Assembly (NCBI GenBank): GCA_963965975.1
Contig: OZ014425.1
Span: 805,001-869,000 of the forward strand
Direction: 5' to 3'
Source of the DNA: Xestospongia bergquistia
Lineage: Eukaryota > Porifera > Demospongiae > Haplosclerida > Petrosiidae
DNA length: 64,000 nucleotides
Positions within the stretch are counted from its first letter, which is position 1. Each line of letters opens with the position of its first letter. The notes under the pieces are model-generated. The model saw only the letters and a program-made list of their open reading frames with translations. It did no database searches and was not told where the DNA came from. Shown here piece by piece: positions 11,419 through 59,930 of the stretch. A program made the position numbers and the translations under genes.

Positions 11419-12439
11419 GTTAGAAAGAAATAGTAGTCTATTAGTATTCTATAATGTTGTTTATAAATTGCTTAGCACATTATATGAATTCACAAAATGT
11501 ACAACAAACTATAAATAGCTGCCCATTGTATCAATGCTGAAACATGAACAGTGTTATTAAGGTTTTTGTTTTAGAGTTAGGTTTTATGGTTAGTGGCTAA
11601 GATTAATAAGGTTTAGAAATATTCTAATTCTTAAACCCAAAAAACTCTTAGAGACAAAGTGACATACTTCAGTTATTGTGTTAGTACTAGTTGACAAAGT
11701 TAGAATGGTGTGTCCCATCCCCTCCTTCATGTAACCACTGAAGTTCTCCCAGAATTCATGATAACATTGGTCCATCCAGGGCCAATTCTGTGATTTCATA
11801 GATTCTATGATCCCATGAGTTCCATCAAGTGTTCCATGGGTTCCACGAGGGTACCATGTTCTATGGGCTCAATGGGTTCCCCCCTTTCATACCCCTACAT
11901 TTAGTACTATTTTATATACCAGCTGGTAAAGATTATTAGCAAACAAATCAACCTTCTATTAATAAATGCTAGTAAAAAATACACTAACAATTTATAGTAT
12001 CAATCAATAATATTGTTGCTATAAAATATTACTTCTAAATACATACTGTGTTTCCAGAAGAGCTTAGAACATAGTTGAATTGTTGTATCAGTGTCATTGA
12101 AACAGCCATATCATTAAATGGATGGAATACTTTGGTTTTTATCTTTCCCATTTTTTTCTTGTAATGAATATTGTTAAATATGTCACTTTATTGGTCAAAA
12201 AATTACAAAAGTTTCAGAGAATACATTATAATAAAAACATTGGTTTCAGCTAATTTCTGTGAGTCGTATGACAATAAAATTAATTATTGATATTAAAACA
12301 AATAACTATAAGATAATATATAATACATACATTATAAATGCAGCGTTGCAGCTTATTATTACTAAGACTCTTTCTAAATAATATTATTTTTCACTTTCCT
12401 TACATTAAATGTTATACTCATTATCATACTACAACTTAG
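11419..12439. other. Start of the large USB1 intron and 3' flank of array gene G1
   Basis: No gene is seen. From about 11575 the sequence is closely similar to 33180-34045, the 3' flank of G6. Shared features include the run 'agtggctaagattaataaggtttag' and a run of 'ccatgggttccacgagggtacc'-like words. The left edge of the duplicated array material is therefore at about 11520-11575, only 100-160 bp after the USB1 donor. Confidence 0.7.
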
Positions 12440-14375
12440 CTAAAGTGAAATGGATAAAACAACACTTACTAACACACCCAACAAACCAATACAGATAGAT
12501 ATATATGCTATATTAACACTGAAAGGTATATTAGCACATAGAATGTTTAGACGAAAACAAAACTGTTGTGCTCTCAGATATTTAACATACTGGTTCTTCA
12601 CGTTGTCAGGAATATTTTTGTAGTAGGTCGAAGAGATATCATCTATCAGCTTTTCACGTGATTTAGTAATTGATCCTGCTCGTAAACATGGATACAGGAA
12701 CAATAATGAATTTGATGACGTAAATAGCACGAGAAAGATAATTTCAAGAGGTTTGAAATGAACTCCAGGTTGGGTATGAGGCAGTGTTCCTTTGATAGTT
12801 AAGAGAATAACTTCAAGAACAAGAGATACAGATAGGAAAGATGATAGGATATAGAAGACCCAGTGAACAAAATACCAAAATTGAAAAATTTTTAATGTTT
12901 TCACAGCAACTGAAATGAAATGTTTATCACGTTGTTTCAAATAAAGTAAAATGTTTGTCTCTCTTGAATATTGGCCTATTTTATGTCTTGTTACTGTGAT
13001 TGTTTTAGTTGACAAAGCAGTTGCAAGGTATTTCCAAATATATTCTTTATTTGCCTCAAAGTTATTGACATGATCAAGGTATTTTATTAGATTACTGCAT
13101 TTACTCTGTATTCCATACATTATCTTGGAAAATATAAAGCAACTGCTTAAAGTGCAGAAATGTGAATACAGATATACAACCACTGTAATTATTTCCCATT
13201 TCATAATTGTATCAGTTTTATATCTATCATCATCAAAAGGTTTAAGTTGTTTATGTAGGAATTGTCCAAAGAAGAAAACAAGTGCCAAAGCAATAAAAAT
13301 GACAATGTTTACTGCTAAATATATAATGAAGAAAAGGGCTTGGTTTGCTTTTAGTTCAGTTGTTGTATCTTTATCTTGATTTGCTATGCTTTTCTTTATC
13401 AATTTACAATTACGACAGTTTCTTTGTCTACATTGTTTGTGGTCATGATTTTTACAAAATTTTTCTGAGTCATCATTATCATCAAATGGATGGAGTGGTT
13501 TGATTTCTTTATTGTTCTTGCCTACTTCTGATAGAACATCATCAATGGGTTTTATTTTCTTAATGTGTGGTATAATATATAACCACCATAGGGCAATAAC
13601 AAAGATAAGATAGGAGAATGAACTAGAAGCTGATGAGAACACTAACACTATCTTTGCAAAATCTTCAAACTCTTGTAGTTTGTGAATTGTTACAGTGTCA
13701 TTTAAAAAGGCATCTGTATATTAATTAATGATAATGATATAGGTAATATGTAGTCAATTTGTAATACTTCATTTTTAACATTTAAATAATAACAATATAC
13801 TCACCTGGGTTATATGCTGTCACATCATTATCATTATCTTTCAAAACTATATCTGGTATAAGAGGACTATTAGGATCCTTTGAGTGGAGCTGAAGTGAGT
13901 AACAGATGCCATAATAACGTATGGGACATTTAATCCAATCAGTTATAAAGACAGCAGTTGGCCAAAGGTTAAGCAATATACCAAAAATTAATGTAAAACA
14001 TATAGCATATGAAAGCCAAAAACACCATGTTTTTCTACTGTCTTTTGATGTCAGTGGTGGGATATACTGGCAAGTTATGAAGGGAAATACTCTTGAGAGA
14101 ACACTCTGGATAAATGTTAAGCATGTACAATTATCCAAACATTTTTCTGTAATAAATAATTAGCATAATTTGAGTCAAGCATTTAGTACTATCATATACC
14201 TTCTGGGTCAGGTTTGTCATCTAGTGAATGAACATAATATCATAATACATTGATACAGCTATCTTATTACTTTACCTATTGGGTCCAGTTGATGGTGTTC
14301 TTGAGCTATTAATCTAGCAAGTTCAAACAATTGATTATGAGACAAAGCAATCTGCCTAGAAGATGGCTCTGCCAT
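12440..14375 (-). CDS. Array gene G1: unrecognised 7-TM protein, clade A
   Basis: Four exons join in phase: 14375-14276, a 21-nt microexon 14220-14200, 14146-13805 and 13713-12440, giving 578 residues. I do not recognise the family. The N-terminus (MAEPSSRQIALSHNQLFELA) is polar. Exon 3 carries TM1 after a basic CQYIPPLT segment. The last exon carries TM2-TM7. The TM2-TM3 loop has PLHPFDD, a Cys-rich HDHKQCRQRNCRNC stretch and NQDKDTTT. The TM4-TM5 loop ends RDKHFISVAVKTLKIFQFW. C-terminal sequence NIAYISICIGLLGVL is nearly identical to G6. Flanking DNA is also shared with G6, so the two are a duplicated pair. The long N-terminal part differs from G6. Exon borders were chosen by GT-AG sites and phase. 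Confidence 0.85.
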
Positions 14376-14710
14376 TAGAATCAGTGTCAGTGAATCTGCT
14401 GTATTAAAGTGTTTGAAAGTTCACTAGATATGCAATTTAAATAATCCACTTAGTTATGAATATAGTTTAACAATCCCATGATTTATGAATACATTTTAAA
14501 AGTTTTTAAGTTGAAGTGTTATACTTATCAACATTAATAAATAGCATAGTCATTTTGATAAGCATCTGACAACAAGGTAACAAATTTGTATAGTAACATT
14601 AAGATATTAAAATTTTGTACTACTAAACATTGAACAGTGATGTTTCAATGAGCACTAACAAATACCCACAGTGTTCACTGGTATCCAAAGTGAATGTCAC
14701 TATCATATAC

Positions 14711-14902
14711 CTTCTTGGTCAGGTGTGTCTTCAACATATTCATCATCTAGTAAATGAACACAATGATCATAATACATTGATACAGTTTTATTATTACTTT
14801 ACCTATTGGATCTAATTGATAATGTTCTTGAGCTATTAATCTAGCAAGTTCAGACAATTGATTATGACACAAAGCAATCTGGCTACGAGGTGGCTCTACC
14901 AT
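14711..14902 (-). pseudogene. Orphan first exon plus microexon (G1-type)
   Basis: Exon 14902-14803 (100 nt, MVEPPRSQIALCHNQLSELA...) and a 36-nt microexon 14746-14711 mirror G1 exon 1 and its microexon. Splice sites and phase are intact. No own TM exons follow; the next downstream exons on this strand belong to G1. It could be a leftover of a deleted gene or a working alternative first exon of G1. The repeated upstream word 'tgaatctgctgtattaaagtg' at both sites shows a local duplication of about 530 bp. Confidence 0.65.
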
Positions 14903-15426
14903 TAAAATCAGTGTCAGTGAATCTGCTGTATTAAAGTGTTTGAAAGTTGGAAGTGTTATAGTAGAAGTGTTATACTTATCAACATTAATAAATAGTATAG
15001 TCATTTTGATAACCATCTCATAAACTAACAACAAGGTAACAAATTTGTATAGTACCATTAAGATATTAAAATTTTGTACTACAAACAATTGAACGATGAT
15101 GTTCCAGTGAACATCCACTGACGGATACCACAGTGTTCATTGATATATAAAGTGAATGTTTTTTTTGATATGTGTGGATATCAACCAAGTCATTTGTAAA
15201 ATATTGCTAATAGTTTAAATTAGTTTCTACATGTTATTAGTTTAGGGATTTGTTAAGATTTAAGGGATGAAATTAACATGTAATTTATAGGACAACGCTA
15301 TTGTGGTGATTCATTTGTTGATTAATTCATGTAATTTATGAATCCAATTTCATTTTTGTGTGGACACACAAGCTACTATCATCAAAAAATGAATAATTTA
15401 AAAGTGATAATATCCCATTGAACAAT

Positions 15427-15829
15427 TTATATGATTACAAAACATGAACAGCACATTCCATATCTTCTCCTTTCTGGTGACGTTAACTGGTGGAATATAC
15501 TGACATGTTGATAGGAAGATTAAAACTCTTAGGAGGAGGCGTTCAAATTTAAACAATCTTTCCTCTGTAAAAATTATAATTTATTTAACTTAAATCTAGT
15601 ATTGTCAGATTGAACTATACTTGTTTTTTTTATGAAGAGAGATCATCTTTATGATCATCATAATTATCTAGTGGATAATTATGAAGACTGCATTATTATT
15701 AATAATTATTTACTACTTTACCTGTTGGGTAAGGGGTCACCTTTTGATGGACTTGTTCATCTTCTGATGTAGTATTTTCAGGAGATGAAGTATAAACCAG
15801 CTCATTTTTGCTGTCTATTGTTGCCATTA
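15427..15829 (-). pseudogene. Truncated array gene (G3-type): exon 1, microexon and 5' half of the TM1 exon
   Basis: A first exon starts at about 15829 (MATIDSKNELVYTSSPEN...KVTPYPTG), followed by a microexon-like segment near 15625-15675. The 5' part of a TM1 exon follows and breaks off at about 15427. The same order is found in G3 (23611-23240), and the 'tatatgattacaaaacatgaacagcac' junction sequence is shared. Everything after the first third of the TM1 exon is missing, replaced by unrelated AT-rich DNA. It is a relic, not a gene. Confidence 0.8.
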
Positions 15830-16581
15830 GAATCAGTGTTGGTGAGAATAATGTAGTTTCAAAACTATAGCCCAGCTTCTACAATAATGTTGATCTGTCT
15901 AACATTAACAATGCTAGTATAATATACCCAAAGGCATCACTTACATTTTGGATGCATGTACCTATTTCATTGGTTGTCAAGATAATCTGGTTCTTGTCAG
16001 ATAAACTGATCAATCAGCTTTTATATTAGTAGTATTGTTATAATATAACTCAGCTGTTCATGATATCTTTATTGGTACACGTGAACAGTAGAGGGGTGTA
16101 TCAACTATCCATGTTTGATGGTACACTCAACAATATAATAGAGTGTTCCTACATGTAATAGTTATAGTATATGAACAGCTGTATTTTTTGTGTGCGGTAG
16201 TCCAGTCAATGGTCAATCATATTCTCTACTGATAATCAATTAATGAATTTTTTTTTTCAGTACACATCTATTGTAGTTCTGTCAACTGTCCATTGTTATA
16301 CTGTATTTTCAATGTTTTTATAGTAACATAATCAATGTTGACCAATAACATTTTCTGTTACTATTTTTAGAATGGTCTAATAATTAATAAGAAAAAAATT
16401 ATTATAATTATATTATATATGAATAATTACACATTATAAACTAATAGCCTCTACATTTTGAAACTGAAAATTTTCAAACCAAACAAACTAAATAATCCTA
16501 CACACTTGCACACTATTACTAAATGTTATGACAAACATACAGTGTTTAAATATTAATGTTTCAGTGTCTCTTATGTATTAT
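15830..16581. other. Spacer between the truncated copy and G2
   Basis: No gene is seen. The sequence at about 15960-16450 is similar to 23830-24340, the spacer downstream of G3's start, so G2 and G4 share their 3' flanks. It contains 'gtgaacagtagaggggtgtatcaac' and poly-T runs. Confidence 0.6.
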
Positions 16582-18482: not shown

Positions 18483-18640
18483 TATGTTTAGATATCTTCA
18501 ACTAGCTATTTGTAAGATTGTATTAAGATAATAATATATCATAATATATAACAGTGTTATAGAAATTATCACTAAAATGCTGAATTATGTGTGTGTTGTT
18601 TATTAGTTACATCAGTCATTGGTATTTGACTACTTCAAAT
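18483..18640 (-). promoter_or_regulatory. Conserved upstream block of G2
   Basis: The start codon sits in AACATAATGGC. Upstream come 'gttgaagatatctaaacat' and a run resembling 'tataacactgttatatattatg', shared nearly base for base with G4, G8, G9, G10, G11 and G12. Retention across paralogs suggests a common promoter and 5' UTR; recent duplication alone could also explain it. Confidence 0.55.
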
Positions 18641-20480: not shown

Positions 20481-20592
20481 ATAACTTAGAGTGAAATGGA
20501 TGCTACCACACTTATAGTATACCCAACAAACCAATACAAATAGATATATAGGCTATATTAACACTAAAGGGTATTTTAGTACACAAAATGTT
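20480..20592 (-). pseudogene. 3'-terminal remnant of an array gene (G12-like)
   Basis: About 100 bp match the last codons and stop region of G12 (57195-57310): 'gagtgaaatggatgctac', then 'aatagatatataggctatatt'. The match stops abruptly at about 20592, where the sequence switches to a different duplicated block (similar to 36850-37440). All TM1-TM6 coding sequence is absent, consistent with an unequal-crossover deletion. Confidence 0.7.
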
Positions 20593-21610
20593 GATGTTAG
20601 TTGGATATGGTAAGTTGTTTGGTCTGTTTTAGTCCATTGTTACCATAGTAGTATATCTTTTGACTTGTGTATTGTTCTTGATCAAAGCATAGATCAAAAG
20701 GATCAATGAATCTATTCTTTGACTTCATGGGAGGTGTGTAAGCTCAAGCACACTATATATAATAATGAATGTCATTTGCTATGATGTTCATCTATTCCAT
20801 TATATTCCATTTAGAATGAAATAGTGCAAGTATAGTAGATCCTATAGACTTGTGTTAGTTACACTCCCTAGTGAATTGAGTAATAGAAATATCATTTTAG
20901 TAAAATATGTACTTCCAGCAATCTTATTAGCCCAGATACTATATAAGTATCCTTGACTTTCTTTCCAATGAACTACATTTTCTATTGTTTTAATGGTAAC
21001 ATCCATTATCACATTACTATAGATATAGTATAATTATAGAATAAACTTTAAAGATTGGCTATTAGTATTTGGTATTTCTTTTCCCTCTATCAGAAGAGTT
21101 TTCAGGTTGTTGGCATGACAATATAGTGTAGATTGAGTCCCTTTACTCTCAGTTAATTATGAAGTTTGGCTAATACAATATGTGTCTTAGATAGAGGGAA
21201 ATCAATACTAATATTCATACGTCATACAATGGACATTTAGTAAGTGGGTGTAGTTTATTATTTATTAATTAACCTCTGAAAGAGGGCAGTGGTGTTATGA
21301 TGTCATCTTAGATAATAAATATTGTTAAATTTGTGTACTTTAATTGAAAAATGTCTTTAAAAAGTGACAAAATCTCTAAAACATAACAATATTATAACGT
21401 ATGCAAATATAAAATTAACCATACCTATTAACATGACACCTTGTATAAGTAATTAACTATGACCATATACAAAATAACAAAAAGTATAACTGTAATAATT
21501 ATTATGTCATTGACTCATTGTTAACATTACATAGCAATTAGTTTACTACAATAATACTTCTGACACGTTATTTTCATTTACATTATACTCATTATCACAC
21601 AATATATAAG
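20593..21610. other. Spacer downstream of G3
   Basis: No gene is seen. Positions 20593-21330 resemble 36840-37450. Part of it (about 21040-21290) also occurs in inverted orientation at about 32580-32880. Confidence 0.55.
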
Positions 21611-26600: not shown

Positions 26601-26639
26601 ATAAAACATTACATATTGTAACATTATAAATTTCACCCA

Positions 26640-31175: not shown

Positions 31176-31178
<3 letters not shown>

Positions 31179-32072: not shown

Positions 32073-34045
32073 GTTTGGTCTGTTTTAGTCCATGATATAT
32101 TTTTTGACTTCAATATTATTTTTGATCAAAGCATAGATCAAAAGGATCAATAAATCTAGTTTATTCTTTGACTTCACGGGAGATGTATGAGCTCAGCACA
32201 CTATATATGATAATGAATACCATTTGCTACAACATTAATCCATCCCATTTTTTCCATCCTATATAGAAATAACACAAGTATTAGTAAGTCTGTAAACCAG
32301 TGTTATAGTACATGTATTATAAGATGCAGTATTTAATAAAAACTATTTACATTCATGCATTGAGAAATTTTAGAGTGCTACGATTTCTTTCAAATTGTCA
32401 GAGATCATAAACAATTGTACTAATATTTATGCAATATATTATCAATCTTTAGTAAGTATATGGGGTTTATTATTTATTATATAACTTTGTTTCTGTTTCA
32501 GAGTTTTTGTTACTTTTTAAGTCATTTTTTAATTAAGTACACAAATTTAACAACGTTCATCATCTACTGTATCCTTAACATAACACAACTGTCCTCTTTC
32601 AGAATAAACCACACCCACTTACTAGATAATATTAATATAGTACACAATATTAGTACAACTGTTTATAATCTCCTTCAATCTAAGACACATATCATATTTG
32701 TCAAATTTCTCAATTAACTGAGAGGAAAGGGAATCAATCTAGTTCCAATAATGTGATATATTATTTATGCATATTACTGACAACCTGAAAACTCTCCTGA
32801 TAGAGGGAAAAGAAATTCCACATACTAATACCCAATCTTTAAAAATCAAACATTCATTCTATAATTCATCACTTATAAAATTATTCATTTTTTGATAATA
32901 ACTGGTATGTCCACACAAAAATGAAACTATATTCATCAATAATCTCAAATTTGAATTCATAAATCATGTGAATCAATCAACAATGAATTACTACTGGTAT
33001 AACAAAGTAACAATATGCTAGCTCACCTCTATTCGTGAGACAAATCTACTTTTTATCAGTGACAAGTGGAAGGATGTATTAGCTATCTACATTAAAATAA
33101 TATTTAAGTTAGTCTGTTGGTATCACTTAGCAATAGAATGTTCCAATATGTGATGTTTTAGTGTAGTATAAACACCTTAGTTAGGGTTTATACTTAGTGG
33201 CTAAGATTAATAAGGTTTAGAAATATTCCAACTCTTAAAACCCCCAAAAAACTCTCAGAGACAAAGCAACATACTTCAGTTATTGTGGTTGACAAAGTTA
33301 AAAGGGTGTATCTCCTCCTTCATGTTCCCCAGAATTCATGATAACATAGTTTCCATCCAGGGCCAATTCTATGATTTCATGATCCCATTGGTTCCATTAA
33401 GTGTTCCTGCAGGGTTCCACTAGGGTACCATGTTCTATGGGCTCAATGAATTCCCTCTTTTTACCCATTTTATATACAAGCTGGTAAAGATTATTAGCAA
33501 ACAAATCAATCTTCTATTGTCAAATAGTAGTAAGAAATATGCTGACAATTTATAATGTCAATCAACAATATTGTTGCTATGAAATATTACTTCTAAATAC
33601 ATACTGTGTTTCCAGATTGAGCTTAGAACATAGTTGAATTGTTGTATAATTGTTGTTGGAACAGTTATGTTATTAAATGGATGAAGTACTTTGGTTTTTA
33701 TCTTTCCCATTATTTTCTTGTAGTGGATATAATGAATATTGTTAATTATGTCACTTTATTAGTCAAACATTACAAAGGTTTCACAGAAACATTATAACAA
33801 AAAGAAAACTATAAATAAAACATTGGTTCCAGCTAACTGCTGTCTGTCTACTAATATTAAGTATGGCAATAAAATTAATTACTGATATAAAACAAATAAC
33901 TAAAAGATAATATATAATATTTATATTATAAATGCAGCATTGCAGCTTATTATTACTAAGACTCTTTCTAAATAAAATGAGGAGGAATATTATTTTTCAC
34001 TTTCCTTACATTAAATGTTATACTCATTATCAAACTACAACTTAG

Positions 34046-35967
34046 CTAGAGTGAAATGGATAAAACAACACTTACTAATACACCCAACAAACCAATACAG
34101 ATAGAGATATATGCTATATTAACACTGAAAGGTATATTAGCACATAGAATGTTTAGACGAAAACAAAACTGTTGTGCTTTCAGATATTTAACATACTGGT
34201 TCTTCACATTGTCAGGAATATTTGTATCAGCACAGGTGATATCACTTATTAACTTTTCACGTGCTTTGGTGATCGATGATGCTCGCAGACATGGATACAG
34301 GAACAAGAATGAATTTGATGATGTAAATAGCACAAGAAGGATAATTTCAAGTGGTTTGAAATGAACTCCTGGTTGGGTATGAGGTAGTGTTCCTTTGATA
34401 GTTAAGAGAATAACCTCAAGAACTAGAGATACAGATAGGAAAGATGATAGGAGGTAGAAGACCCAGTGAACAAAAAACCAAAATTGAAAAATTTTCAATG
34501 TTTTCACAGCAACTGAAATGAAATGTTTATCACGTTCTTTTAAGTAAAGTAAAGTCTCTTGGTCTACACCTGAATTAATGTTACATCCAAGATAGTGAAA
34601 ATACCGTCTAATAGCAATTTTATTTTCATCAAAGTTATTGACATGAAGGAGATACTTATAGAGATTGCTGCACTTATTTTGTATTCCATACATTATCTTG
34701 GAAAATATAAAGCAGCTGCTTAACGTGCAAAAGTGTGAATACAGATATACAGCCACTGTAATTATTTCCCATATCATAATTGTATCAGTTTGATATGTAT
34801 CATCATCAAAAGGTTTAAGTTGTTTATGTAGGAATTGTCCAAAGAAGAAAACAAGTGCCAAAGCAATAAAGATGAGAATATTTACTATTAAATATATAAT
34901 AAAGAATTTGGGTTGGTTTGCATTTAATTTAGTTGTTGTATCAGTGTCTTGACCGTATATGTGACGACAAATGGGACAATCTTGACCAAGTTCGATTTCG
35001 TTGGCATCAGGTCTGTTGTCATCATCAGGTCTGTTGTCATCATCAAGGCTGTTGTCATCATCAGGTCTGTTGTCATCATCAGGTCTGTTGTTAGCATCAG
35101 GTCTGTTATCATCATCAGGTCTGTTGTTAGCATCAGGTCTGTTATCATCATCAGGTCTGTTATCAAATGGATGGAGTGGCTTTACTTCTGTTTCTGGGTC
35201 TGCTAGTAAATATGGTATGATATACAGCTTCCATAAAGCAATCGCAAAAATGATGTAGGATATTGAACTAGAAGCTGATGAGAACAATAACACTATCTTA
35301 GCAAAATCTTCAAACTCTTGTAGCCGGTAGCGTGTTTCAGTATCATTTAAAAAGTCATCTGTATATCAAGTAATCATATGATATAGTTATAGTTAATAAA
35401 GTAATACTCCATTTTTTACATAAAATATACTCACTCACCTGGATTATATGCTGTCATATCATTATCAACATTTTTCAAAACAATATCTGGTATAAGAGGA
35501 CTGTTAGGATCCTTTGAGTGGAACTGAAGTGAGTAACAGATGCCATAATAGCGCATGGGACATTTTATCCAATCAATTATAAAGATAATAGTCGGCCAGA
35601 GGTTAAATAATATGCCGAGGATTAATGTACAACATATAGCATATCCAAGCCAAAAACACCGCTTTTTTTTACTGTCTTGTAATGTCAGTGATGGGATATA
35701 CTGGCAAGTTATAAAGGGAAATACCCTTAAGAGAACAGTTTGGATACATGCCAAACATGCATGATCTTCCAAAGGTTGTTCTGTAATGTATAATTAGTGT
35801 AATATGAATCAAATGTTTAGTATCATCATATTCTAGTTACCTTCTGGGTGAGGATTATCTCCAATACGGTATCCTTGATGATGGTGTTCTTGAGCTATAG
35901 GTTGCAAACCAATATCATTACCATTGCCATGAGGGAGTTGTTGAAGCTCTCTATTGTCTTCAGCCAT
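34046..35967 (-). CDS. Array gene G6: unrecognised 7-TM protein, clade A
   Basis: Three exons: 35967-35841, 35780-35439 and 35358-34046, giving 593 residues. The first exon (MAEDNRELQQLPHGNG...) fuses what is exon 1 plus microexon in G1. The TM1 exon has ACIQTVLLRVFPFITCQYIP before a basic stretch, then TM1. The TM2-TM3 loop is unusual: after PLHPFD it carries about nine 6-residue units based on DDDNRP/DANNRP, coded by an 18-bp minisatellite, before GQDCPICRHIYGQDTDTTT. TM3-TM7 are close to G1. The TM4-TM5 loop has LLYLKERDKHFISVAVKTLK. The C-terminus is LGVLVSVVLSISL. No frame break was seen. Confidence 0.88.
35004..35163 (-). repeat. In-frame 18-bp minisatellite inside G6
   Basis: About nine units with the plus-strand consensus 'ggtctgttgtcatcatca', with variants 'ttgttagcatca' and one 'aaggctgttg'. 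Each unit encodes six residues (DDDNRP, DANNRP or DDDNSL). It sits in the predicted cytosolic TM2-TM3 loop and keeps the frame. Confidence 0.9.
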
Positions 35968-38287: not shown

Positions 38288-40666
38288 TTACAATGCAGCT
38301 GCTATACTTGATGCAAAACCAAATAAACCCAAAACAATAGAGACATAGGCAATAGTAATACTGAAGGGTATTGTGATACATATAATATGTAGACGAAAAC
38401 CAAATTTTTTAGCTTTCAGGTATGCAATAAAATTATTCTTCACATTATCGGAAACATTCTCAAAATTGTCACAAGTAATTGTGCGTATCAGTTTTTCACG
38501 GTACTTAGTGACTTTTGCTGCTCGTATTGATGGATATATGAACAAAAATAAGCTTAGTGCTCCAAAAGGAATGAGAACTATAGTTTCACGAAATCCAAAA
38601 TTATCAAATTGTTTGTCAAAGTTATTAGTGCTAGTCAAATGGATTACTTGAAAAAACAGATCAACAGAGAGGAATGAAATAAGGATAAAAGCAATCCAAT
38701 GAAAAAGAAACCAGAATTGTAAAGGTTGTAATGTTTTAACAGCGACATCTGTAAAATCTTTATCACGTTTCTTCAAGTAAAGTAAAATCTTTTTCTCCCT
38801 TAAAGTTTGATCAAGTTGGGACTCGCCAAGGTACTCATTAATAGCAGCTTCATTTTCACAAAAATTTTTAACATGATCAAGATACTTGTAAAGATCCATG
38901 CACTTTGTTTGTATTCCATACATTATCTTCGAAAATATAAAACAGCTGACTATTGTACAGAGATATGAATAAATAAATGCCACCATGGCTGATTTTTCCA
39001 ATTTCATGTAAAGCACAGGTTTGGTTCCATTGGTGTTATCATCAATTATTGCAGGAGGGTGTTGGAAAAATTTACCAGTGGCAACAGACTCCATTACTCC
39101 AATAATTAAAGTATACACTACTAGAGCTATAATATAGAGGATAAATGTTTTTGGATCTTGTCGAGTTGTTGTATCATTATCTTGATTTCTTGTGAGTTTA
39201 CATACAGCACAATCATTACCTTGACAAAGGTTATTGTTACTGTGAACTTCATTAGGATATTTGGGGAGTTCATTGTCAAATGGATGAAGTGGTTTGATGT
39301 CTTCTTCCTCCTCTTCTCTTTTCTTACAGTGTACTATAACATAAAGATATGATGAGAAACATGACAATACATGTTTAATATATTTGTATTGTTTACAGTG
39401 TTGTATAATATACAGCCACCATAGTGCAACGACAAAAATGAGATAGGATATTGAGTTGAAAGCTGATGAAAACAGGAACAACAATCTAGTATAATGTTTT
39501 AATTTCTTAAATGTACTGCTTGTATCGGCATCTATAAGTATAAAAAGTGTGATATTTCTTTACTGATCAAACAAGAGAGCTAACCTGTCTCATTTCCATT
39601 TGAATGATATGTTAACATGTCCCAAAAACCAGAATAACGTATAGGACAAATTGAGCAATCAAGAGCAAAGGTAATGGTAGGATAAAGATTAACTGCTATG
39701 CCAAAGATTGTTGTACAAACTATGGCATACATAATCACAATACTAGACCAACACTTTCCATTTATTCCACACCTTTTTGATCTCACTGGTGGAATATACT
39801 GGCAGGTTAAGCAAAAGAAAAGCCTTAGTAGGATGTGGAAAAATTTTATACCTAAAATACTAATGAATTTTATACCCCATATATAATGATACTTACAAGG
39901 TTTTACAATTTTGGTTTCACAAAGGTCTAACATTGATAATGTCAATTTGATCAATATGACAATTTTATCTACCTTCTTCATGAGAATCTCCTCCTTCTTT
40001 GTATTTCTTTTTTGAGTTAATTAATGGGTCTGTCTCATAATCTAATAGTAATAGATAATAGTAAAGACTGCATCATCATATGCTGTGTTGCATACATTGT
40101 AATATATTCATAAAATGATCACTTAAAAGACTATTATAGAATAAAATGTTTCAGCATAAAATTTTCATCAACTGTATAACATGAAATTAAGAAGAAAATG
40201 GCTATTTATAAAAGTACAATGCATGATAGTGTGTACATTGGTGCTGTAGATGCTTGTTGAGACACAATCTTGTCCCATTAATCAAGCATCTCCAGTACTA
40301 TTTACACCATCATGTATTGTACTTTAATATAAATAGTCATCATTTTCTTATTAATTTTATATTATACAGTTGATGAAGGTCTTTAGGCTGAAACATTCTG
40401 TTTTATAATAGATCTTTTAAACCATCATTTTATAAAAATATCATATTTATAAAAGCTCAACTATCTCCTTATTTATAAATGTGACGTACATAGTAAAAAA
40501 CTTTCATATTTTATATATTATACTTATTCTTTCACAATTATTTGTAATGATAAGTAGTTACTCAATGCCCAGTGATAATCAAAAGATATCCCTCCCATTT
40601 CCATTATTTGGTATCATATTATCATGTTAATATAATTAGTTATTACAAACACTTACCATTAGCCAT
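38288..40666 (-). CDS. Array gene G7: unrecognised 7-TM protein, clade C
   Basis: Five exons: 40666-40657 (only MAN plus one base), 40041-39973, a 30-nt microexon 39926-39897, 39851-39585 and 39531-38288, giving 539 residues. It is the sister copy of G5 in a block of about 5.7 kb. Differences from G5 include a shorter first exon, a shorter Cys-rich loop (NLCQGNDCAVCKLTRNQ) and a shorter TM4-TM5 loop (ESQLDQTLREKKILLYL). The last 70 codons are virtually unchanged. The last-exon acceptor is TATAG rather than ACAG, still in phase. Maintained frames in both copies suggest selection on each, or a recent duplication. Confidence 0.8.
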
Positions 40667-43427: not shown

Positions 43428-45427
43428 TTAAATGTTGCTACTCAGACGTATTAGTATAGCCAATAGACTAATAAAGATAGAGATATAAGCAATATTAAGG
43501 CTAAAAAAGATGTGTGCACATAGGATGTACAAGCGAAAACCAAACTTTTGACCTTTCAAAAAACTAATAAACAACTTTTTCAAATTTGTCGATATCTTAG
43601 GATAATCAACTAAACAAGATTTGTTGATTCTTTGAATAAGTTTCTTCCTTGCTTCTGTGACAGCTGCTGCTCGTAGACATGGATACAGGAAGAAGATACA
43701 GTTAGAGGTCGCAAAGAGCATAAGGAATATCATTTCAAGAGGGTTGAAATGTACACCAGGTCTAGGGTGAGGTAGAGTAGCTTGAATGGTTAGTTGTATG
43801 GCATCTAGTAGTAGTGACACTGATAGAAAGGAGGAGACAATGTATAGTATCCAATGTATGAAGAACCACAACTCAAACATTTTCAATGTTTTAACAGCAA
43901 CATCCACAAAATCGTTATCACATTGCTGGAGATAGAGTAAAGGGCTTTGCTCTTTTGACAGGTTGATTTTTGAAGGTTCTTTTGATATAGTTTGAGAGTT
44001 CTGATCGTCTATTTCAGCTTTAGTATCTTTGTTATTACTATTCTCATTACCAAGACATTGATTGACATGACCAAGATAGTTGTAGAGGTTACTGCACTTT
44101 CTCTGTATTCCATACATTATTTTGGAAAATATAAAACAACTTGACAATGTACAGAAGAGTGAATAAAAGTAACCAGATACTGAAAATATTTCCAAATTCT
44201 TAAAAAGGGTTGTCTTCTTTTTATTACCTTCAATTGTATTTGGTGGATTATGGTGGTATTGACCATAGATAAAGATCACCATCAAAGCAATGTTGACAAT
44301 AATATTGACCACTAAGAAAATAGTGAACCACACAACTTCTTCTTTGCCCAGTTGAGTTGTTGTATCATCATCTTGATTTCTTATGATTTTACACACAGGA
44401 CAATTGTCTTGGCAACGGTTACTGTTACTGTGAACTTTACAAGGATGTTTAGGTGGATCATCATCAAATGGATGGAGTGGTTTGGGTTTCTCTGTTTTTT
44501 GTTGATGTATCATAGACCTCCTTTCGTCATTTCCAGTCTCCACCTCCTCCATGTTGTCTTCATTCTCCACCTGTTCTTTTGTTACAAGATTCTTACAATG
44601 TGGTTTAATATAAAGCCACCACAGTGCAATAACAAAGATGATATAGGACAATGAACTAGAAGCTGATGAGAACTGGAGCACTACTTTAGCAAAATCTGTA
44701 AACTCTTGTAACTTGTCACGTGTATCATTAACATTTAAAAGATCACCTGTGTGTTAGGGAGAATATATATATTATATAATTACTTAATTCTAGTAGCTTA
44801 AACCATAAACTTTATTTACTTTCAAAAACTTCTGATATACTAAACAATCACTCACCTGGGAGGTATTTAGGATGATCATTATTGACATCTTTCAGAACTA
44901 TATCTGGTACATGAGAATTGTTAGGATCTTCTGAGTGAAGCTCAAGTGAGAAACAAATACCATAATATCGTATTGGACACTTCGTCCAATTACCTAGGAG
45001 TACACCAGTAGACCACAAGTTAATGAGTACACCAAAGATTGTTGTGCAAAATATAGCATATATAATAACAGCACAGGAACAACGCTTTCCATATTTTGCT
45101 CGTGGAATATACTGACATGTTAAACAGAAGAAAACTCTTAAGAAGAATCGTCCTGTTTCTCCTATAATTAAGACCAGCAATATGAATATTCACAAACTAG
45201 AGTATTGTATAAAACTTACTCATAGTTTCGTATCTAGTGCTATCAAGTTCTAGATTAGAATTTTCAGTTTGAGCTGTTTTTTTTTTACTTTTTGGAGTTG
45301 CTTGACTTTCTTGATCATCATTTTGGTTTGGTGGAGTAGTACCATATGGTCCATTAGTATGTTGTTCACCTGTAACAAGAAGAGTTTCTTCATTAGTACC
45401 AACACCACCATTATCACGAGTAGCCAT
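43428..45427 (-). CDS. Array gene G8: unrecognised 7-TM protein, clade B (reference copy)
   Basis: Three exons: 45427-45220, 45161-44856 and 44746-43428, giving 610 residues. Approximate layout: polar N-terminus 1-69; basic amphipathic GRFFLRVFFCLTCQYIP 73-89; TM1 about 100-126; outer loop with KCPIRYYGICFSLELHSEDP; TM2 200-220; cytosolic loop 220-305 with PLHPFDDD, CKVHSNSNRCQDNCPVC and NQDDDTTTQL; TM3 305-330; TM4 343-368; cytosolic loop ending RKINLSKEQ-type and QCDNDFVDVAVKTLKMF; TM5 449-478; TM6 490-513; cytosolic RAAAVTEARKKLIQRIN; TM7 573-600. Lys/Arg cluster after TM2, TM4 and TM6, giving N-in/C-out. The function is unknown. Confidence 0.88.
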
Positions 45428-46663: not shown

Positions 46664-48770
46664 TTATATAGTACTAGCCAGACGTAATAGTATACCTAAT
46701 AAACTAATAAACATAGAGATGTATGCAATACTGTGACTAAAAGGGATGTAAGCACACAGGATGTACAAGCGAAAACCAAACTTTTGACCTTTAAGAAAAC
46801 TAATAAACTTCTTTTTCAAATTTGTTGGTATGTTAGGATAATCAACTGAACAAGATTTGTTGATTTTTTTAATAAGTTTCTTCCTTGCTTCTGTGACAGC
46901 TGCTGCTCGTAGACATGGATATAGAAAGAAGATACAGTTGGAGGTCGCAAAGAGCATAAGGAATATCATTTCAAGAGGGTTGAAATGTACACCAGGTCTA
47001 GGGTGAGGTAGAGTAGCCTGAATGTTTAGTTGTATTGCATCTAGTAGTAGTGACACTGATAAAAAGGAGGAGACAATGTACAATATCCAATGTATGAAGA
47101 ACCACAACTCAAACATTTTCAATGTTTTAACAGCAACATTTACAAAATCATTATCACGTTGCTGGAGGTAAAGCAAAGCTTTTTCTTCATCCTCTTGCCA
47201 TGGTAAAAGATTGAGCAATGTACCTATTCTCTCCTGCAGTGTTTCATTTGTCCAGAAGTTTTTAAGGTAGTCATTAATAGCAGCTCTATTTTCATCAAAG
47301 TTATTAACATGACCAAGATAGTTATAGAGGTTACTGCACTTTCTCTGTATTCCATACATTATTTTGGAAAATATAAAACAACTTGACAAAGTACAGAAGA
47401 GTGAATAAAAGTAGCCAGACATTGAAAATATTTCCAAATTCTTAAAAATGGTTGTCTTATTTTTATCACCTTCAATTGTATTTGGTGGATTATGGTGGTA
47501 TTGACCATAGATAAAGATCACCATCAAAGACACATTGACAATAATATTGACTAGTAAGAATATAGTGAACCACACAACTTCTTCTTTGGTCAGTTGAGTT
47601 GTTGTATCATCATCTTGATTTCTTGTAATATTACACACAGGACAATTATCTTGACAATGGTTGCTGTTATTATGAACTACACCAGGATATTTGGGTGGAT
47701 CATCATCAAATGGATGGAGTGGTTTGGGTTTCTCTACTTGTTGTTGTATAATAAGCCTCCTTTCGTCCTCGTCATCTCCATTCTCCACCTCCTCCATGTT
47801 ATTTTCATTCTCCACCTGCTCCTTTGTTACAAGATTCTTACAATGTTTGTGGTCGTCATCATCAAATGGATGGAGTGGTTTGAGTGTCTCTACTTCTTGT
47901 TGTATCATGGACCTCTCCTCGTCCTTGTCATTTTCATTCTCCTCCACCTCCATGTTGTTTTCATTGTCTACCTGCTCCTTTGTTACAAGATTCTTACAAT
48001 GTGGTATAACATACAGCCGCCATAGTGCAATAACAATGACGATATAGGAGAATGAACTAGAAGCTGATGAGAACTGGAGTACTACTTTAGCAAAATTTGT
48101 AAACTCTTGTAACTTATCGCGTGTATTATTAACATTTTTATTAACATTTAAAAGATCTCCTGTATGTTAGGGAGAACATATATATTATATAATTATTCAA
48201 TCCTGGTAGTTTAAACAAAAACTTTGTTTACTAAACAATCACTCACCTGGGAGGTATTTAGGATGGTCATTATTGACATCTCTCAGAACTATATCTGGTA
48301 TATGAGAACTGTTAGGATCCTCTGAGTGAAGCTCAAGTGAGAAACAAATACCATAATATCGTATTGGACACTTCGTCCAATTACCTAGGAGTACACCAGT
48401 AGACCACAATTTAATGAGTATACCAAAGATTGTTGTACAAAATATAGCATATATAATAACAGCACAGGAACAACACTTTCCATGTTTCACTGGTGGAATA
48501 TACTGACATGTTAAACAGAAGAAAACTCTTAAGAAGAATCGTCCTATTTTTCGTATAAATAACACCATCAATATAAATATTCACAAATTAGAATATTATA
48601 TAAAACTTACCCATAGTTTTGTATATAATACTATCATGTTCTGGATTAGAATGTTCAGTTTGAGCTGGGGTTTCACCTGTTTGAGTTACTTGATCATCAT
48701 TTATTGTGGCATTATATCTACTAGGTTGTGAGTCACTAATAAGAGCAGTGAATTCATTAGAAGTAGCCAT
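46664..48770 (-). CDS. Array gene G9: unrecognised 7-TM protein, clade B, with duplicated cytosolic loop
   Basis: Three exons: 48770-48611, 48543-48247 and 48159-46664, giving 650 residues, the longest member. The TM2-TM3 loop contains the KNLVTKEQV...PLHPFDDD module twice (PLHPFDDDDHKHCKN then PLHPFDDDPPKYPG), an in-frame internal duplication. The exon 2 acceptor is shifted: the usual TTATAG site is mutated and the next AATAG, 9 nt further in, restores phase (KTM|GRFFLRVFF). The TM4-TM5 loop has TNETLQERIGTLLN. The third exon begins with an extra NVNK copy (LLNVNKNVNNTRDK). C-terminal residues CAYIPFSHSIAYISMFI differ from G8 and match G11. Confidence 0.86.
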
Positions 48771-49837: not shown

Positions 49838-51710
49838 TTAAATGTTGCTACTAAGACGTATTAGTATACCCAATAGACTAATAAAAATAGAGATATAAGC
49901 AATATTAAGGCTAAAAAAGATATGAGCACATAGGATATACAAGCGAAAACCAAACTTTTGACCTTTAAGAAAACTAATAAACTCCTTTTTCAAATTTGTT
50001 GGTATGTTCGGATAATCAACTGAACAAAATTTGTTGATTCTTTGAATAAGTTTCTTCCTTGCTTCAGTGACAGCTGCTGCTCGTAGACATGGATACAGGA
50101 ATAAGATACAGTTAGAGGTCACAAACAGTGTAAGGAATATCATTTCAAGAGGTTTGAAATGTACACCAGGTCTAGGGTGAGGTAGGGTAGCCTGAATGGT
50201 TAGTTGTATGGCATCTAATAGTAGTGACACTGATAGAAAGGAGGAGACAATGTACAATATCCAATGTATGAAGAACCACAACTCAAACATTTTCAATGTT
50301 TTAACAGCAACATTTACAAAGTCATTATCACGTTGCTGGAGATAGATAATCTTCTTTTCTTCTTCCATTTGCTCTAGCCTTTGATCAGTAAAGAAGTTTT
50401 TAAGGTAGTTATTAATAGCAGCTCTATTTTCATTAAAGTTATTAACATGATCAAGATAGTTGTAGAGGTTACTGCACTTTCTCTGTATTCCATACATTAA
50501 CTTGGAAAATATAAAACAACTTGACAATGTACAGAAGAGTGAATAAAAGTAAGCAGACACTGAAAATATTTCCAAATTCTTAAAAAGGATTGTCTTATTT
50601 TTATCATCTTCAATTGTATTTGGTGGATTATGGTGGTATTGACCACAGATAAAGATCACCATCAAAGACACGTTGACAATGATATTGACTAGTAAGAAAA
50701 TAGTGAACCACACAACTTCTTCTTTGGTCAGTTGAGTTGTTGTATCATCATCTTGATTTCCTGTAATATTACACACAGGACAATTATCTTGACAATGGTT
50801 ACTGTTATTATGAACTACACCGGGATATTTGGGGGGATCATCATCAAATGGATGAAGTGGTTTGGGTTTCTCTACTTCTTGTTGTTGTTTCATGAGCCTT
50901 CTCTTGTCATCCACCTGCTCTTTTGCTGCAAGATTCTTGCAATGTGGTGTGACATATAGCCACCATAATGCAATAACAATGATGATATAGGACAATGAAC
51001 TAGAAGTTGATGAGAACTGGAGCACTATTTTAGCAAAATCAGTAAACTCTTGTAATTTATCACGTGTATCATCAACACTTAAAAGATCACCTGTATGTTA
51101 GGGAGAACACATATATTATATAATTATTCAATCCTGGTAGTTTAGACCATAAACTTTGTTTACTTTCAAAAACTTCTGATATACTAAAAAATCACTCACC
51201 TGGGAGGTATTTAGGATGGTCATTATTGACATCTTTCAGAACTATATCTGGTATATGAGAACTGTTATGATCCTCTGAGTGGAGCTCAAGTGAGAAACAA
51301 ATGCCATAATATTGTATTGGACACTTTATCCAATTACCTAGGAGTACACCAGTAGACCACAAGTTAATGAGTATACCAAAGATTGTTGTACAAAATATAG
51401 TATATATGATAACAGCACAGGAACAACGCTTTCCATATTTTGCTCGTGGAATATACTGACATGTTAAACAGAAGAAAACTCTTAATATGAAACGTCCTAT
51501 TGCTCCTATAATTAAGACCAGCAAAATATTAATATTAACATACTAGACTGATACATAAAGCTTACTTGCATTGGAATCTTCAGTTTGATCTGTTTGATTA
51601 TTATTTCGGTTTTGTGGAATAGTATCATACTGTCCATTGGTGTTTTGTTGATCTGTAGCAAGAGGAGTTTCTTCATCAGGACCAACAGCAACATTATCAT
51701 GATCAGCCAT
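49838..51710 (-). CDS. Array gene G10: unrecognised 7-TM protein, clade B
   Basis: Three exons: 51710-51566, 51505-51200 and 51090-49838, giving 567 residues. Exon 1 (MADHDNVAVGPDEETPLA...) is nearly the same as that of G12 and ends TEDSNA with an A|GTAAGC donor. The TM1 exon has CQYIPRAKYGKRCSC. The TM2-TM3 loop lacks the acidic minisatellite-like insert of G8, G9 and G11, having only KEQVDDKRRLMKQQQ before KPKPLHPFDDD. The TM4-TM5 loop (FFTDQRLEQMEEEKKIIYL) matches G2. So the loops are shuffled among clade B members while TM5-TM7 hardly vary. The frame is intact and splice sites are canonical. Confidence 0.87.
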
Positions 51711-52963: not shown

Positions 52964-54992
52964 TTATATAGTACTAGCCAGACGTATTAGTATACCCAAT
53001 AAACTAATAAACATAGAGATGTATGCAATACTGTGACTAAAAGGGATGTAAGCACACAGGATGTACAAGCGAAAACCAAACTTTTGACCTTTAAGAAAAC
53101 TAATAAACTCCTTTTTCAAATTTGTTGATATCTTAGGATAATCGACTGAACAAGATTTGTTGATTTTTTGAATAAGTTTCATCTTTGCTTCTGTGACAGC
53201 TGCTGCTCGTAGACATGGATATAGGAATAAGATACAGTTAGAGGTCACAAACAGTGTAAGGAATACCATTTCAAAAGGATGAAAATGCACACCAGGTCGA
53301 GTGTGAGGTAGAGTAGCTTGAATGTTTAGTTGTATGGCATCTAGTAGTAGTGACACTGATAGAAAGGAGGAGACAATGTACAATATCCAATGTATGAAGA
53401 ACCACAACTCAAACATTTTCAATGTTTTAACAGCAACATTTACAAAATCATTATCACGTTGCTGGAGGTAAAGCAAAGCTTTTTCTTCATCCTCTTGCAG
53501 TGATAAAGGATTGAGCAATGTACCTAATCTCTCCTGCAGTGTTTCATTTGTCCAGAAGTTTTTAAGGTAGTCATTAATAGCATCTCTATTTTCATTAAAG
53601 TTATTAACATGATCAAGATAGTTGTAAAGGTTACTGCACTTTCTCTGTATTCCATACATTATTTTGGAAAATATAAAACAACTTGACAATGTACAGAAGA
53701 GTGAATAAAAGTAAGCAGACACTGAAAATATTTCCAAATTCTTAAAAAGGATTGTCTTCTTTTTATTACCTTCAATTGTATTTGGTGGATTATGGTGGTA
53801 TTGACCATAGATAAAGATCACCATCAAAGACACATTGACAATAATATTGACTAGTAAGAATATAGTGAACCACACAACTTCTTCTTTGGTCAGTTGAGTT
53901 GTTGTATCATCATCTTGATTTCTTGTAATATTACACACATCACAATCATAACTATTGCCTTGACAACAGTTACTGCTACTGTGAGCTTTACCAGGATATT
54001 TGTGGTCGTCATCATCAAATGGATGGAGTGGTTTGGGTTTCTCTACTTCTTATTGTATAATAAGCCTCCTTTCGTGCTCGTCATCTCCATTCTCCTCCTC
54101 CTCCATGTCGTTTTCATTCTCCACCTCCTCCATGTCGTTTTCATTCTCCTCCTCCTCCATGTTGTCTTCATTCTCCTCCTCCTCCATGTTGTCTTCATTC
54201 TCCACCTGCTCCTTTGTTACAAGATTCTTACAATGTGGTATTACATACAACCACCATAGTGCAATAACAATGACGATATAGGACAATGAACTAGAAGCTG
54301 ATGAGAACTGGAGTACTACTTTAGCAAAATCTGTAAACTCTTGTAACTTATCGCGTGTATTATTAACACTTAAAAGATCTCCTGTATGTTAGGGAGAACA
54401 TATATATTATATAATTATTCAATCCTGGTAGTTTAAACAAAAACTTTGTTTACTAAACAATCACTCACCTGGGAGGTATTTAGGATGGTCATTATTGACA
54501 TCTCTCAGAACTATATCTGGTATATGAGAACTGTTAGGATCCTCTGAGTGAAGCTCAAGTGAGAAACAAATACCATAATATCGTATTGGACACTTCGTCC
54601 AATTACCTAGGAGTACACCAGTAGACCACAAGTTAATGAGTATACCAAAGATTGTTGTGCAAAATATAGCATATATAATAACAGCACAGGAACAACACTT
54701 TCCATATTTTGCTCGTGGAATATACTGACATGTTAAACAGAAGAAAACTCTTAAGAAGAATCGTCCTATTTTTCGTATAAATAACACTATCAATATAAAT
54801 ATTCACAAATTAGAATATTATATAAAACTTACCCATAGTTTTGTATATAATACTATCATGTTCTGGATTAGAATGTTCAGTTTGAGCTGGGCTTTCACCT
54901 GTTTGAGTTACTTGATCATTATTTATTGTGGCATTATATCTACTAGGTTGTGAGTCACTAATAAGAGCAGTGAATTCATTAGAAGTAGCCAT
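52964..54992 (-). pseudogene. Array gene G11: clade B 7-TM gene with one in-frame stop
   Basis: Three exons with intact splice sites: 54992-54833, 54765-54469 and 54381-52964. The frame is open over the whole length except for a TAA at 54052-54050, in the cytosolic TM2-TM3 loop, where paralogs read CAA in LIIQQ-type sequence. Without that base change the product would be about 624 residues. With it, only about 261 residues with TM1-TM2 are made. No other lesion was seen, so the event is recent, a sequencing error, or a polymorphism. The loop carries a 27-bp acidic minisatellite. The exon 2 acceptor is shifted by 9 nt as in G9. It is the sister of G9. Confidence 0.8.
54089..54212 (-). repeat. 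In-frame 27-bp acidic minisatellite inside G11
   Basis: Units start at 54089, 54116, 54143 and 54170 (plus-strand 'attctcctcctcctccatgt' then 'tgtcttc'), plus a partial fifth at 54197. Each encodes nine residues of the EDNMEEEEN type. G4, G8 and G9 have one or two degenerate units at the same place. Confidence 0.85.
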
Positions 54993-55130
54993 TATGTTTA
55001 GATATCTTCAACTAGCTAACTGTAAAGGCTGTATTAAGATAATAATATATCATATATAAAATGTGGAATTATGTGTACTGTTTATTAGTCATGTTAGTCA
55101 TTGTGCTTAAAATAGCCCTCCCATTATTTT
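54993..55130 (-). promoter_or_regulatory. Conserved upstream block of G11, shortened
   Basis: Starts like the other blocks but lacks about 30 bp of the middle part (the 'acagtgttatagaaattatc' segment), the only clade B copy seen with this deletion. Confidence 0.5.
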
Positions 55131-57199: not shown

Positions 57200-59102
57200 T
57201 TAGAGTGAAATGGATGCTACTACACTTACCACTGTAGTCAACAAACCTACACAAATAGAGATATAGGCTATATTAACACTGAAGGGTATTTTAGCACATA
57301 AAATGTTTAGACGAAAACAAAACTTTTGAGTTTCCAGATAATTAACAAAATCACTCTTCACCCTATCATCTATATTTGGGTAGTCTTGAGAAGTGATGGT
57401 GCTTATCAATTTTTTGCGTGATGTAGTAATTGATGCTGCTCGTAGGCAAGGAAATAGGAACAAGAATGAGTTTGATGCTGCAAATAATGTAAGGAATACC
57501 ATTTCTAAAGCTTGGAAGTTAACACCAGATTTAATATGAGATTGTCTGCCTTTGATGGTTAATAGAGTTGCTTCAAGAACAAGAGATATAGATAGAAAAG
57601 AAGAAATAATGTAGAAGATCCAGTGAACAAAAAACCAGAATTGAAAAATTTTTAGTGTTTTAGCAGCAACCAAAATGAAATGTTTATCACGTTGCTTCAG
57701 GTAGTATAGCATATTGTCTTTTTGTGAAAGTCTTTCTAATATTTGTAATCTTTCTTCATTTTTATTTTGCCAGGTGTTCTTAAGGTAAATCTTAAAAGCA
57801 TTTTTATTTTGATCAATTCCAAATTTATTAACATGATCAAGATATTTATTGAGGTTACTGCATTTTTTCTGTATTCCATACATTATCTTGGAAAATATAT
57901 AGCAACTGCTTAATGAACAGAGATGTGAGTAAAGATATGCTGACACAGCAGACTTTTCAAAATTTGCATAGAATTCAGTCCTTCTTTGATTTGTGTCATC
58001 ATCTATTATCATAGGTTTGTAGCGATATTGTCCAACAAGGAAAACAATTGCCATGGCAACAAAAAGGCCTATATTCACTACTACATACAGAATAAAGAAT
58101 TTGAGTTCCTTTTTATCCAGTCGAGTTGTTGTATCATTATCTTGATTTATTGTGAGTTTACATACAGCAGGACAATCATCACTATTACCTTGACAAATGT
58201 TATTGTTACTGTGAACTTCATTAGGATATTTAGGGAGATCATCATCAAATGGATGAAGTGGTTCGATGTCTTCTTCCTCCTCTTCTCTTTTCTCACAATG
58301 TACTATAAAGTAAAGACATGATGAAAGACCTGACAATAAGCGAACAATACACTTGATTTCCTTACAGTGTTGTTTTATATATAGCTTCCATAGGGCATAA
58401 ACAAAGATGAGATAGGAGAGTGAGCTAGAAGTTGACGAAAACAGGAGTGTTATCTTGCCAAAATCTACAAACGCCTCTAGTTTTGAGCGTGTATCACTAT
58501 TAGTTAACAGATCACCTGTGTATTAAATGTATATTACACATCTCCATACATCATGTCTTATTTTACAAATTTACATGTACTCACTTTGGCCATATATGGG
58601 ATTATTTGTTCCATTCTTATCAATATCTTTCAAAACAATATTTGGTATAAGAGGACTATTAGGATCCTTTGAGTGGAACTCAAGTGAGTAGCAGATGTTA
58701 TAATAACGTATGGGACACTTAATCCAATCAGCTAGGAAAATACCAGTAGGATAAATGTTAATGAGTATACCAAAGATTGTTGTACAAAATATAGCATATA
58801 TGATAATACCATAGGAACAACACTTTCCATGTTTCACTGGTGGAATATACTGACATGTTAAACCGGAGAAAACTCTAAATAACCAACGTCCTATTGTTCC
58901 TATAATTAAGACCAGCAATATGAATATTCATATACTAGACTGTTATATAAAACTTACTTGCATTGGAATCTTCAGTTTGATCTGTTTGATTATTATTTTG
59001 GTTTTGTGGAATAGTATCATACTGTCCATTAGTGCGTTGTTGATCTGTAACAAGAGGAGTTTCTTCATCAGGACTAACGGCAACAGTATCAAGAGCAGCC
59101 AT
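57200..59102 (-). CDS. Array gene G12: unrecognised 7-TM protein, mosaic of clades A, B and C
   Basis: Three exons: 59102-58958, 58899-58585 and 58515-57200, giving 591 residues. Exon 1 (MAALDTVAVSPDEETPLV...) is the G10 type. The TM1 exon starts clade-B-like (CQYIPPVKHGKCCS) and ends clade-A-like (HSKDPNSPLIPNIVLKDID). It uses a CAAA|GTGAGT donor, where others have CCAG|GTGAGT, changing one residue (GQS). The TM2-TM3 loop with SGLSSCLYFIVHCEKREEEE and PKYPNEVHSNNNICQGN is the clade C type. TM5-TM7 (KIFQFWFFVHWIFYIISS) are the clade A type. It is the first array member next to the right boundary. Confidence 0.87.
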
Positions 59103-59290
59103 TATGTTTAGATATCTTCAACTACCTAACTGTAAAGATTGTATTAAGATAATAATATATCATAATATATAACTATGTTATAGAAATTATCACTAAAATG
59201 TGGAATTTGTGTGTAATGTTTATTAGTTATATCAGTCATTGTGGTTTGACTGCTTAAAAATACCCCTCCCATTATTTTCATAAAATATAG
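59103..59290 (-). promoter_or_regulatory. Conserved upstream block of G12
   Basis: The clade B type upstream block, although TM3-TM7 of G12 are clade A-like. It supports a recombinant origin of the gene. Confidence 0.55.
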
Positions 59291-59828
59291 TTTAGATATT
59301 GTAATATTATAAATTAGTAACAAATCTTCACATATTAACAACTTACAACAATATAATCACAACTCTTAAAGCAATATTATAGAGGTATTCAATTCTCTAT
59401 TGATCCAAGGACAACCTATATCACTCTCATCTCTGCCAGATTAGCAATACCAAAGCAATGAACTAACTCACGTGGCTCATGTCCCAAGGATAACTCAGTA
59501 AACATAATAATATTTTAATTACTAGTGTACTGTAAAATTGATGATTTTGTAGCTACAATAGCAGGAATGCATTAGTATTTGCTTACTTTATTGAACAAGA
59601 ATAACTTTTAGTTATCTTGGCAATTAATATCAACTGACACGACTTGTAGTTGTCTGAAGTGAAGGCTTTATCTGTTAGACAAGCATTATATAATTAAGGT
59701 GACTGAACACGTGATGTATTGTTAACAGTGGGAAATCAATGGGAAATCAGATGTTATAGACTATTTAACATTAATTGACTGACTTTAAAATACTACAATG
59801 TGATTGCATCTTAGTTTATTGTTGTCAT

Positions 59829-59830
<2 letters not shown>
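59291..59830. other. Right edge of the array
   Basis: No gene is seen. Positions 59385-59830 repeat 55755-56220. The match ends at the (TC)n tract, about 100 bp before the USB1 exon 5 acceptor. Confidence 0.65.
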
Positions 59831-59925
<95 letters not shown>

Positions 59926-59928
59926 ACT
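59831..59928. repeat. (TC)n microsatellite serving as polypyrimidine tract
   Basis: More than 40 TC units run into 'ctctcactag', the acceptor of USB1 exon 5. The homologous place at about 56217-56228 has only about five units. Confidence 0.9.
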
Positions 59929-59930
59929 AG

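Follow-up and report, generated by a model that had tools for sequence, protein, structure and literature searches.

A tandem array of twelve predicted receptor-like genes lies antisense within one 48.5-kb intron of a sponge USB1 gene

Genes nested on the opposite strand of a host gene are known, and in the passages covered of PMC12274878 ceh-10 within polq-1 of Caenorhabditis elegans is such a case. For the covered part of a 2024 review (PMC11526382), gustatory receptor homologues were reported in protostomes, cnidarians and placozoans; a sponge cluster of such receptors was not described in the literature passages covered, in which no sponge paper on these receptors and no report of an array nested in USB1 were found. 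The locus described here is from the sponge Xestospongia bergquistia. The stretch analysed, called the window, is 64,000 bases long (C15:805001-869000 of a 146-Mb, 21-contig genome) and was followed by the 30 kb directly after it (L003). It carries the gene USB1, and intron 4 of USB1 encloses twelve receptor-like genes on the opposite strand. Unlike nesting of the ceh-10/polq-1 type, a whole tandem family of twelve occupies one intron in a genome whose introns are otherwise very short, and a twelve-gene tandem family amid introns of 73 bases is a striking variant of known nesting.

USB1 was read as a single intact gene of nine exons over 57,436 bases from which intron 4 is removed in one piece; together with tandem duplication of a receptor-type gene inside that intron, we give this reading a probability of about 0.85. 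Its parts are as follows.

10617-10723, + strand, USB1 exon 1, with the ATG at 10617 (spliced frame)
10913-10959, + strand, USB1 exon 2 (spliced frame)
11059-11157, + strand, USB1 exon 3 (spliced frame, genome protein search)
11223-11418, + strand, USB1 exon 4, carrying the first HxS motif (HLSLS) and ending in phase 2 (spliced frame, genome protein search)
11419-59930, + strand, USB1 intron 4, 48,512 bases, GT-AG
59931-59984, + strand, USB1 exon 5 (spliced frame, genome protein search)
60125-60164, + strand, USB1 exon 6 (spliced frame, genome protein search)
L003:1538-1603, + strand, USB1 exon 7, beyond the window end (spliced frame, genome protein search)
L003:3696-3779, + strand, USB1 exon 8, with the second HxS motif, 3.7 kb past the window end
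L003:3936-4052, + strand, USB1 exon 9, containing the stop codon

Exons 7-9 were found in order, in frame and on the same strand as exons 1-6. Introns 1-8 measured 189, 99, 65, 48512, 140, 5373, 2092 and 156 bases, introns 6 and 7 being likewise long, and all eight had GT-AG borders. Splicing produced one open frame for a protein of 269 amino acids (aa), which matched Pfam PF09749 HVSL end to end (expectation value (E) 2.7e-54, profile positions 1-241 of 242) and solved U6 small nuclear RNA (snRNA) phosphodiesterases in the PDB (best E 9.1e-33). Both HxS motifs were present, HLS in exon 4 and HIS in exon 8, and aligned with 4h7w; the exon with the second motif, sought beyond position 64000, is exon 8. 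U6 exonuclease activity would be expected of a protein of this family. When the protein was searched against the whole genome, eight of the ten rows were USB1 exons on C15 (exon 5 stretch E 2.6e-6, exon 7 8.3e-8, exon 8 7.2e-11 and exon 9 1.0e-18), the other two had E 0.1 and 0.3, and no second USB1 copy, for which the earlier note had proposed a search, was found with the spliced protein as query. The gene is thus like known USB1 (U6 snRNA phosphodiesterase, PF09749) in its full-length match, both HxS motifs and single copy, and unlike it in the 48,512-base intron enclosing twelve genes.

The earlier note had placed the end of exon 4 at 11418 in phase 2 and had two further exons restore the phase, and both statements held. 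The donor of intron 4 reads AAG before the border and GTTAGA after it and resembles the donors of neighbouring introns, while exons 5 and 6 continue the phase of exon 4 with intact AG/GT borders. The last 60 bases before exon 5 were 95% pyrimidine, compared to 53-70% in the other seven USB1 introns, because a dinucleotide run sits there.

59831-59925, + strand, TC dinucleotide run, polypyrimidine tract of intron 4 (repeat scan, splice-site analysis)

A long pyrimidine tract at the 3' end of the intron would aid recognition of a distant acceptor. The frame upstream of exon 5 has a stop at 59812 with no ATG between it and the exon, and the first methionine of exons 5-9 is residue 99 of 119, downstream of the second HxS motif. 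With no usable start codon, exons 5-9 are therefore useful only when joined to exon 4, and splicing across 48,512 bases is the simplest reading; intron 4 would then be spliced in cis in living cells. Of the two possibilities raised earlier, a gene still spliced across a giant intron and a gene split by the array, the evidence favoured the former: the nine exons form one open frame that includes both HxS motifs, the gene is single-copy, and exons 5-9 lack a start of their own. The latter was not supported. A database protein from another source, P0093, is a 178-aa open reading frame (ORF), uninterrupted across the regions of exons 4-9 and 54% identical to USB1; since it has no introns it is probably RNA-derived.

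The length of intron 4 was set against 47 neighbouring exon pairs, with approximate lengths, from one genome search with a kinesin family (91 of 103 rows used; twelve single-exon, isolated or nested hits omitted). Exons separated by as much as 60 kb could form a pair, and missing one exon may have removed a giant-intron gene from the sample. The kinesin introns had a median of about 73 bases, a mean of 232 and a maximum of 1,717, and 28 of the 47 were shorter than 100 bases, in agreement with the earlier statement that introns here are usually below 100 bp. Intron 4 is longer than the median of this sample by a factor of about 660. For Amphimedon, the passages covered give a mean intron length of 256 and a median of 71 in one annotation (PMC5429095) and an average of 327 in a different one (PMC4432959).

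An antisense array of twelve genes with duplicated spacers fills the gap of 48,512 bases, as the earlier note had claimed. All twelve genes lie within 12440-59102, wholly inside the intron and opposite to the host strand, and are listed below; they come from the ORF list and exon prediction, with a repeat scan added for g6, g9 and g11 and structure prediction for g12.

12440-14375, - strand, g1, receptor-like, three predicted exons, 571 aa
16582-18482, - strand, g2, 577 aa
21611-23674, - strand, g3, 590 aa, uncertain start codon
24470-26458, - strand, g4, 607 aa
28244-29962, - strand, g5, 540 aa, uncertain exon 1
34046-35967, - strand, g6, 593 aa, with an 18-base repeat (35005-35165) in the loop that follows helix 2
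38288-39981, - strand, g7, 531 aa, uncertain exon 1
43428-45427, - strand, g8, 610 aa
46664-48770, - strand, g9, 650 aa, 156-base internal duplication (repeat 47700-48002)
49838-51710, - strand, g10, 567 aa
52964-54992, - strand, g11, one in-frame TAG in the main exon, coding tandem repeat 54080-54228
57200-59102, - strand, g12, 591 aa, main exon folded by structure prediction

Each gene has three predicted exons and encodes 531-650 aa. Upstream of the main exon are the predicted exon 1 and then a small exon with the first helix, the second introns being 53-136 bases long. The main exons showed a mean column identity of 54% when aligned (g11 taken from after its stop, g3 trimmed). Eleven of the genes are open, the in-frame TAG of g11 being a premature stop. 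Counted from stop to stop, with none running off an end, 12 of the 13 ORFs of at least 150 aa in the window are array main exons; the thirteenth is on the + strand at 47558-48025, opposite g9. Near 20521-20613 the intron also contains a fragment, 31 aa long, of one more copy of the family. Outside the array only two more genes of the family were found in the genome, in tandem at C12:1265558-1272786, each in one open frame of about 560 aa and about 33% identical to the array. As a separate observation, the tandem repeats of g6, g9 and g11 fall in the coding loop after the second helix, the length of which changes fast.

Among the matches listed for the predicted structures, insect odorant and gustatory receptors were by far the best, and the array proteins are predicted from these models to have the fold of that group (7TMIC superfamily); as such they would be ligand-gated channels, in that superfamily tetrameric and cation-conducting. 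The model of P0029 has seven long helices. A simple hydropathy plot, a method that splits the last helix in several array genes, gave seven segments in seven genes, six in g9, g11 and g12, nine in g7 and ten in g5. The loops that would face inside are longer and mostly more basic than the others in g1, g3 and P0029. Compared with insect odorant and gustatory receptors, GRL and 7TMIC proteins in the covered passages of PMC7746228 and PMC9998090, the array is alike in predicted fold and in a short C-terminus after the last helix, and its long loops may likewise be cytoplasmic. It is unlike insect receptors and GRL in sequence (6-12% identity in the listed alignments) and in length (531-650 aa versus about 350-500). 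The motif of the seventh transmembrane helix (TM7) of animal GRL is given as (T/S)Yhhhhh(Q/K/E)(F/L/M) in the covered part of PMC7746228; the array typically has AYISIFIGL, in which Y and L are kept and the first and eighth places are not, so that two of four places would agree. The TM7 search pattern fitted 59 of the 63 rows of alignment A2, with the register set by eye. Searching the genome with PF08395 (7tm_7) gave one match, on C13 with E 0.116, and none in the array, and 7tm_7 was not among the 25 listed of the 55 Pfam families matched by the 63 rows. Weak Pfam matches such as those to DUF2207_C (8 of 63 rows, with E 2.5e-4 at best) and 7TM_GPCR_Srd (2 of 63, 4.7e-4) were below curated cut-offs where these were shown and were rejected.

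Two spacers bound the array within the intron, neither assigned to a strand.

11575-12439, intron spacer on the 5' side, matching the spacer before g6 (33179-34045) at 80% identity (blastn)
59110-59843, intron spacer on the 3' side, parts of which match spacers within the array at 74-89% identity

Parts of the 3' spacer recur at 45.4, 48.8, 51.7 and 55.8 kb with 84-89% identity, and weaker matches occur at other places. The copies reach to about 156 bases from the intron 4 donor and about 87 from the acceptor, with the simple-repeat edge at 59831-59925 only roughly placed as the blastn low-complexity filter was on. No copies of USB1 exons or of intron 5-6 pieces were found inside the array (blastn, E 1e-4). 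Spacers were copied and USB1 exons were not; therefore the predicted receptor cluster grew by local duplication, and the host would have stayed unbroken. A founder seven-helix receptor gene on the opposite strand inside intron 4 would have been duplicated in tandem to twelve copies, most simply by unequal crossing-over between spacers within the intron, and copies that took in a splice site or an exon would have been lost, USB1 being needed. The intron spacers were found only here in the genome, except for a stretch of about 80-120 bases that also matches 13 places outside the window; a short dispersed repeat at window 59497-59577 has its 13 outside matches on C1-C4, C6, C7 and C15.

Ten database proteins correspond to ten of the twelve array genes (g1-g5, g7, g8 and g10-g12) at 99.5-100% identity, and six further ones are relatives 70-83% identical to array genes. 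In a tree of the twelve genes and 20 database proteins the array interleaved with relatives (g1 with P0023, g3 with P0024, g4 with P0006 and g12 with P0017), and much of the duplication therefore predates the split from those relatives. P0060 is Amphimedon queenslandica A0A1X7SGX0, named 'Gustatory receptor' in UniRef and 45% identical to g2 over 266 columns; it belongs to the same family as the array and differs in being only a 247-aa piece. With USB1 exon 4 as query three database proteins were found, and with the neighbouring homeobox gene 14, none of either set on a contig of a length known to carry the array proteins. Another relative in the database, P0059, has 725 aa, a middle loop with a long run of NTINGG-like repeats and a precomputed Pfam PF21300.

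Several points weigh against an intact USB1 enclosing receptor genes. The first exon of each receptor-like gene is a putative one, chosen by computation. The 3' introns characteristic of animal GRL genes (Benton et al. 2020, PMC7746228, covered part) are absent from all twelve genes, the second to seventh helices lying in one exon in each, and no Pfam or PDB sequence profile links the array proteins to insect receptors. The database protein P0092, with four member sequences, shares the exon-4 part of P0093 and then has K and a stop exactly at the exon border. Such a K and stop would arise from the AA of exon 4 and the G and T of an intron behind it, which fits an intron 4 in the same place and phase that was retained there; by its sequence P0092 fits either retention of intron 4 or a short USB1 isoform in another organism. 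P0091 is 86% identical to exon 4 in the search table, with different letters beyond the same border. An ORF that ends at exon 4 elsewhere would also suit an array that had split USB1, leaving exons 1-4 with a truncated product and exons 5-9 as a relic, as would an intron about 660 times the sampled median. However, the main array lineages predate the split from their relatives in the tree, so that a relic is expected to have decayed, and exons 5-9 are still in frame, with their splice sites, the second HxS motif and a conserved C-terminus in place; a split gene is very unlikely. There is an even slighter chance that the two halves are separate transcripts joined by trans-splicing, which would need no 48.5-kb transcript: the junction is in phase 2 with ordinary GT and AG signals, in keeping with cis-splicing, and a promoter or start specific to exons 5-9, at which no search was aimed, did not come to light. 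Just as improbable is an assembly error: tandem repeats are a classical source of misjoins, but neither the window nor the following 30 kb contains an N, the USB1 exons flanking the array occur once each, in gene order and on the same strand, and the near-identical database proteins match ten of the twelve genes, although these may not be independent of this assembly.

An intact USB1 spliced over the array could also be part of a functional nest, in which USB1 transcription would repress or select receptors, or receptor transcription would set the amount of full-length USB1. The layout predicts that host and nested genes would share antisense transcription, and the nest may have a regulatory role. 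All twelve genes run opposite to USB1, and the cluster has remained within a single intron; in the covered passages of PMC12274878, 567 opposite nested pairs of C. elegans were less co-expressed than non-nested neighbours. Tandem duplication alone, however, likewise preserves place and orientation, and a functional nest is considered unlikely. Somewhat more doubtful still is the picture of a nerveless animal with diversifying channels of the insect taste receptor type, in which USB1 transcription would limit or select the receptors per cell and receptor transcription would tune full-length against exon-4-terminated USB1.

The locus illustrates the size that an intron can reach in a short-intron genome if it contains a gene family, and it is a natural setting for testing splicing across 48.5 kb alongside introns of about 73 bases. 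If a sponge has a tandem family of insect-receptor fold, this would be relevant to the time at which chemoreceptor-type channels began expanding, before neurons or without them.

An Rfam scan of 94,000 bases (the window and three flanking stretches) gave no U6 or other RNA above the gathering score. Downstream, a homeodomain gene (Pfam Homeodomain, L003:4607-5566) begins about 550 bases past the USB1 stop, and one may speculate that the long USB1 introns 6 and 7 hold control elements of it. At window 143-3671 on the + strand there is an open-frame run of one gene, with no Pfam match for the three pieces searched and no PDB match for the one searched. The left neighbour of USB1 is an exon of the AP-2 complex alpha subunit at window 6577-6984 on the - strand (PDB E 9.9e-51, Adaptin_N).

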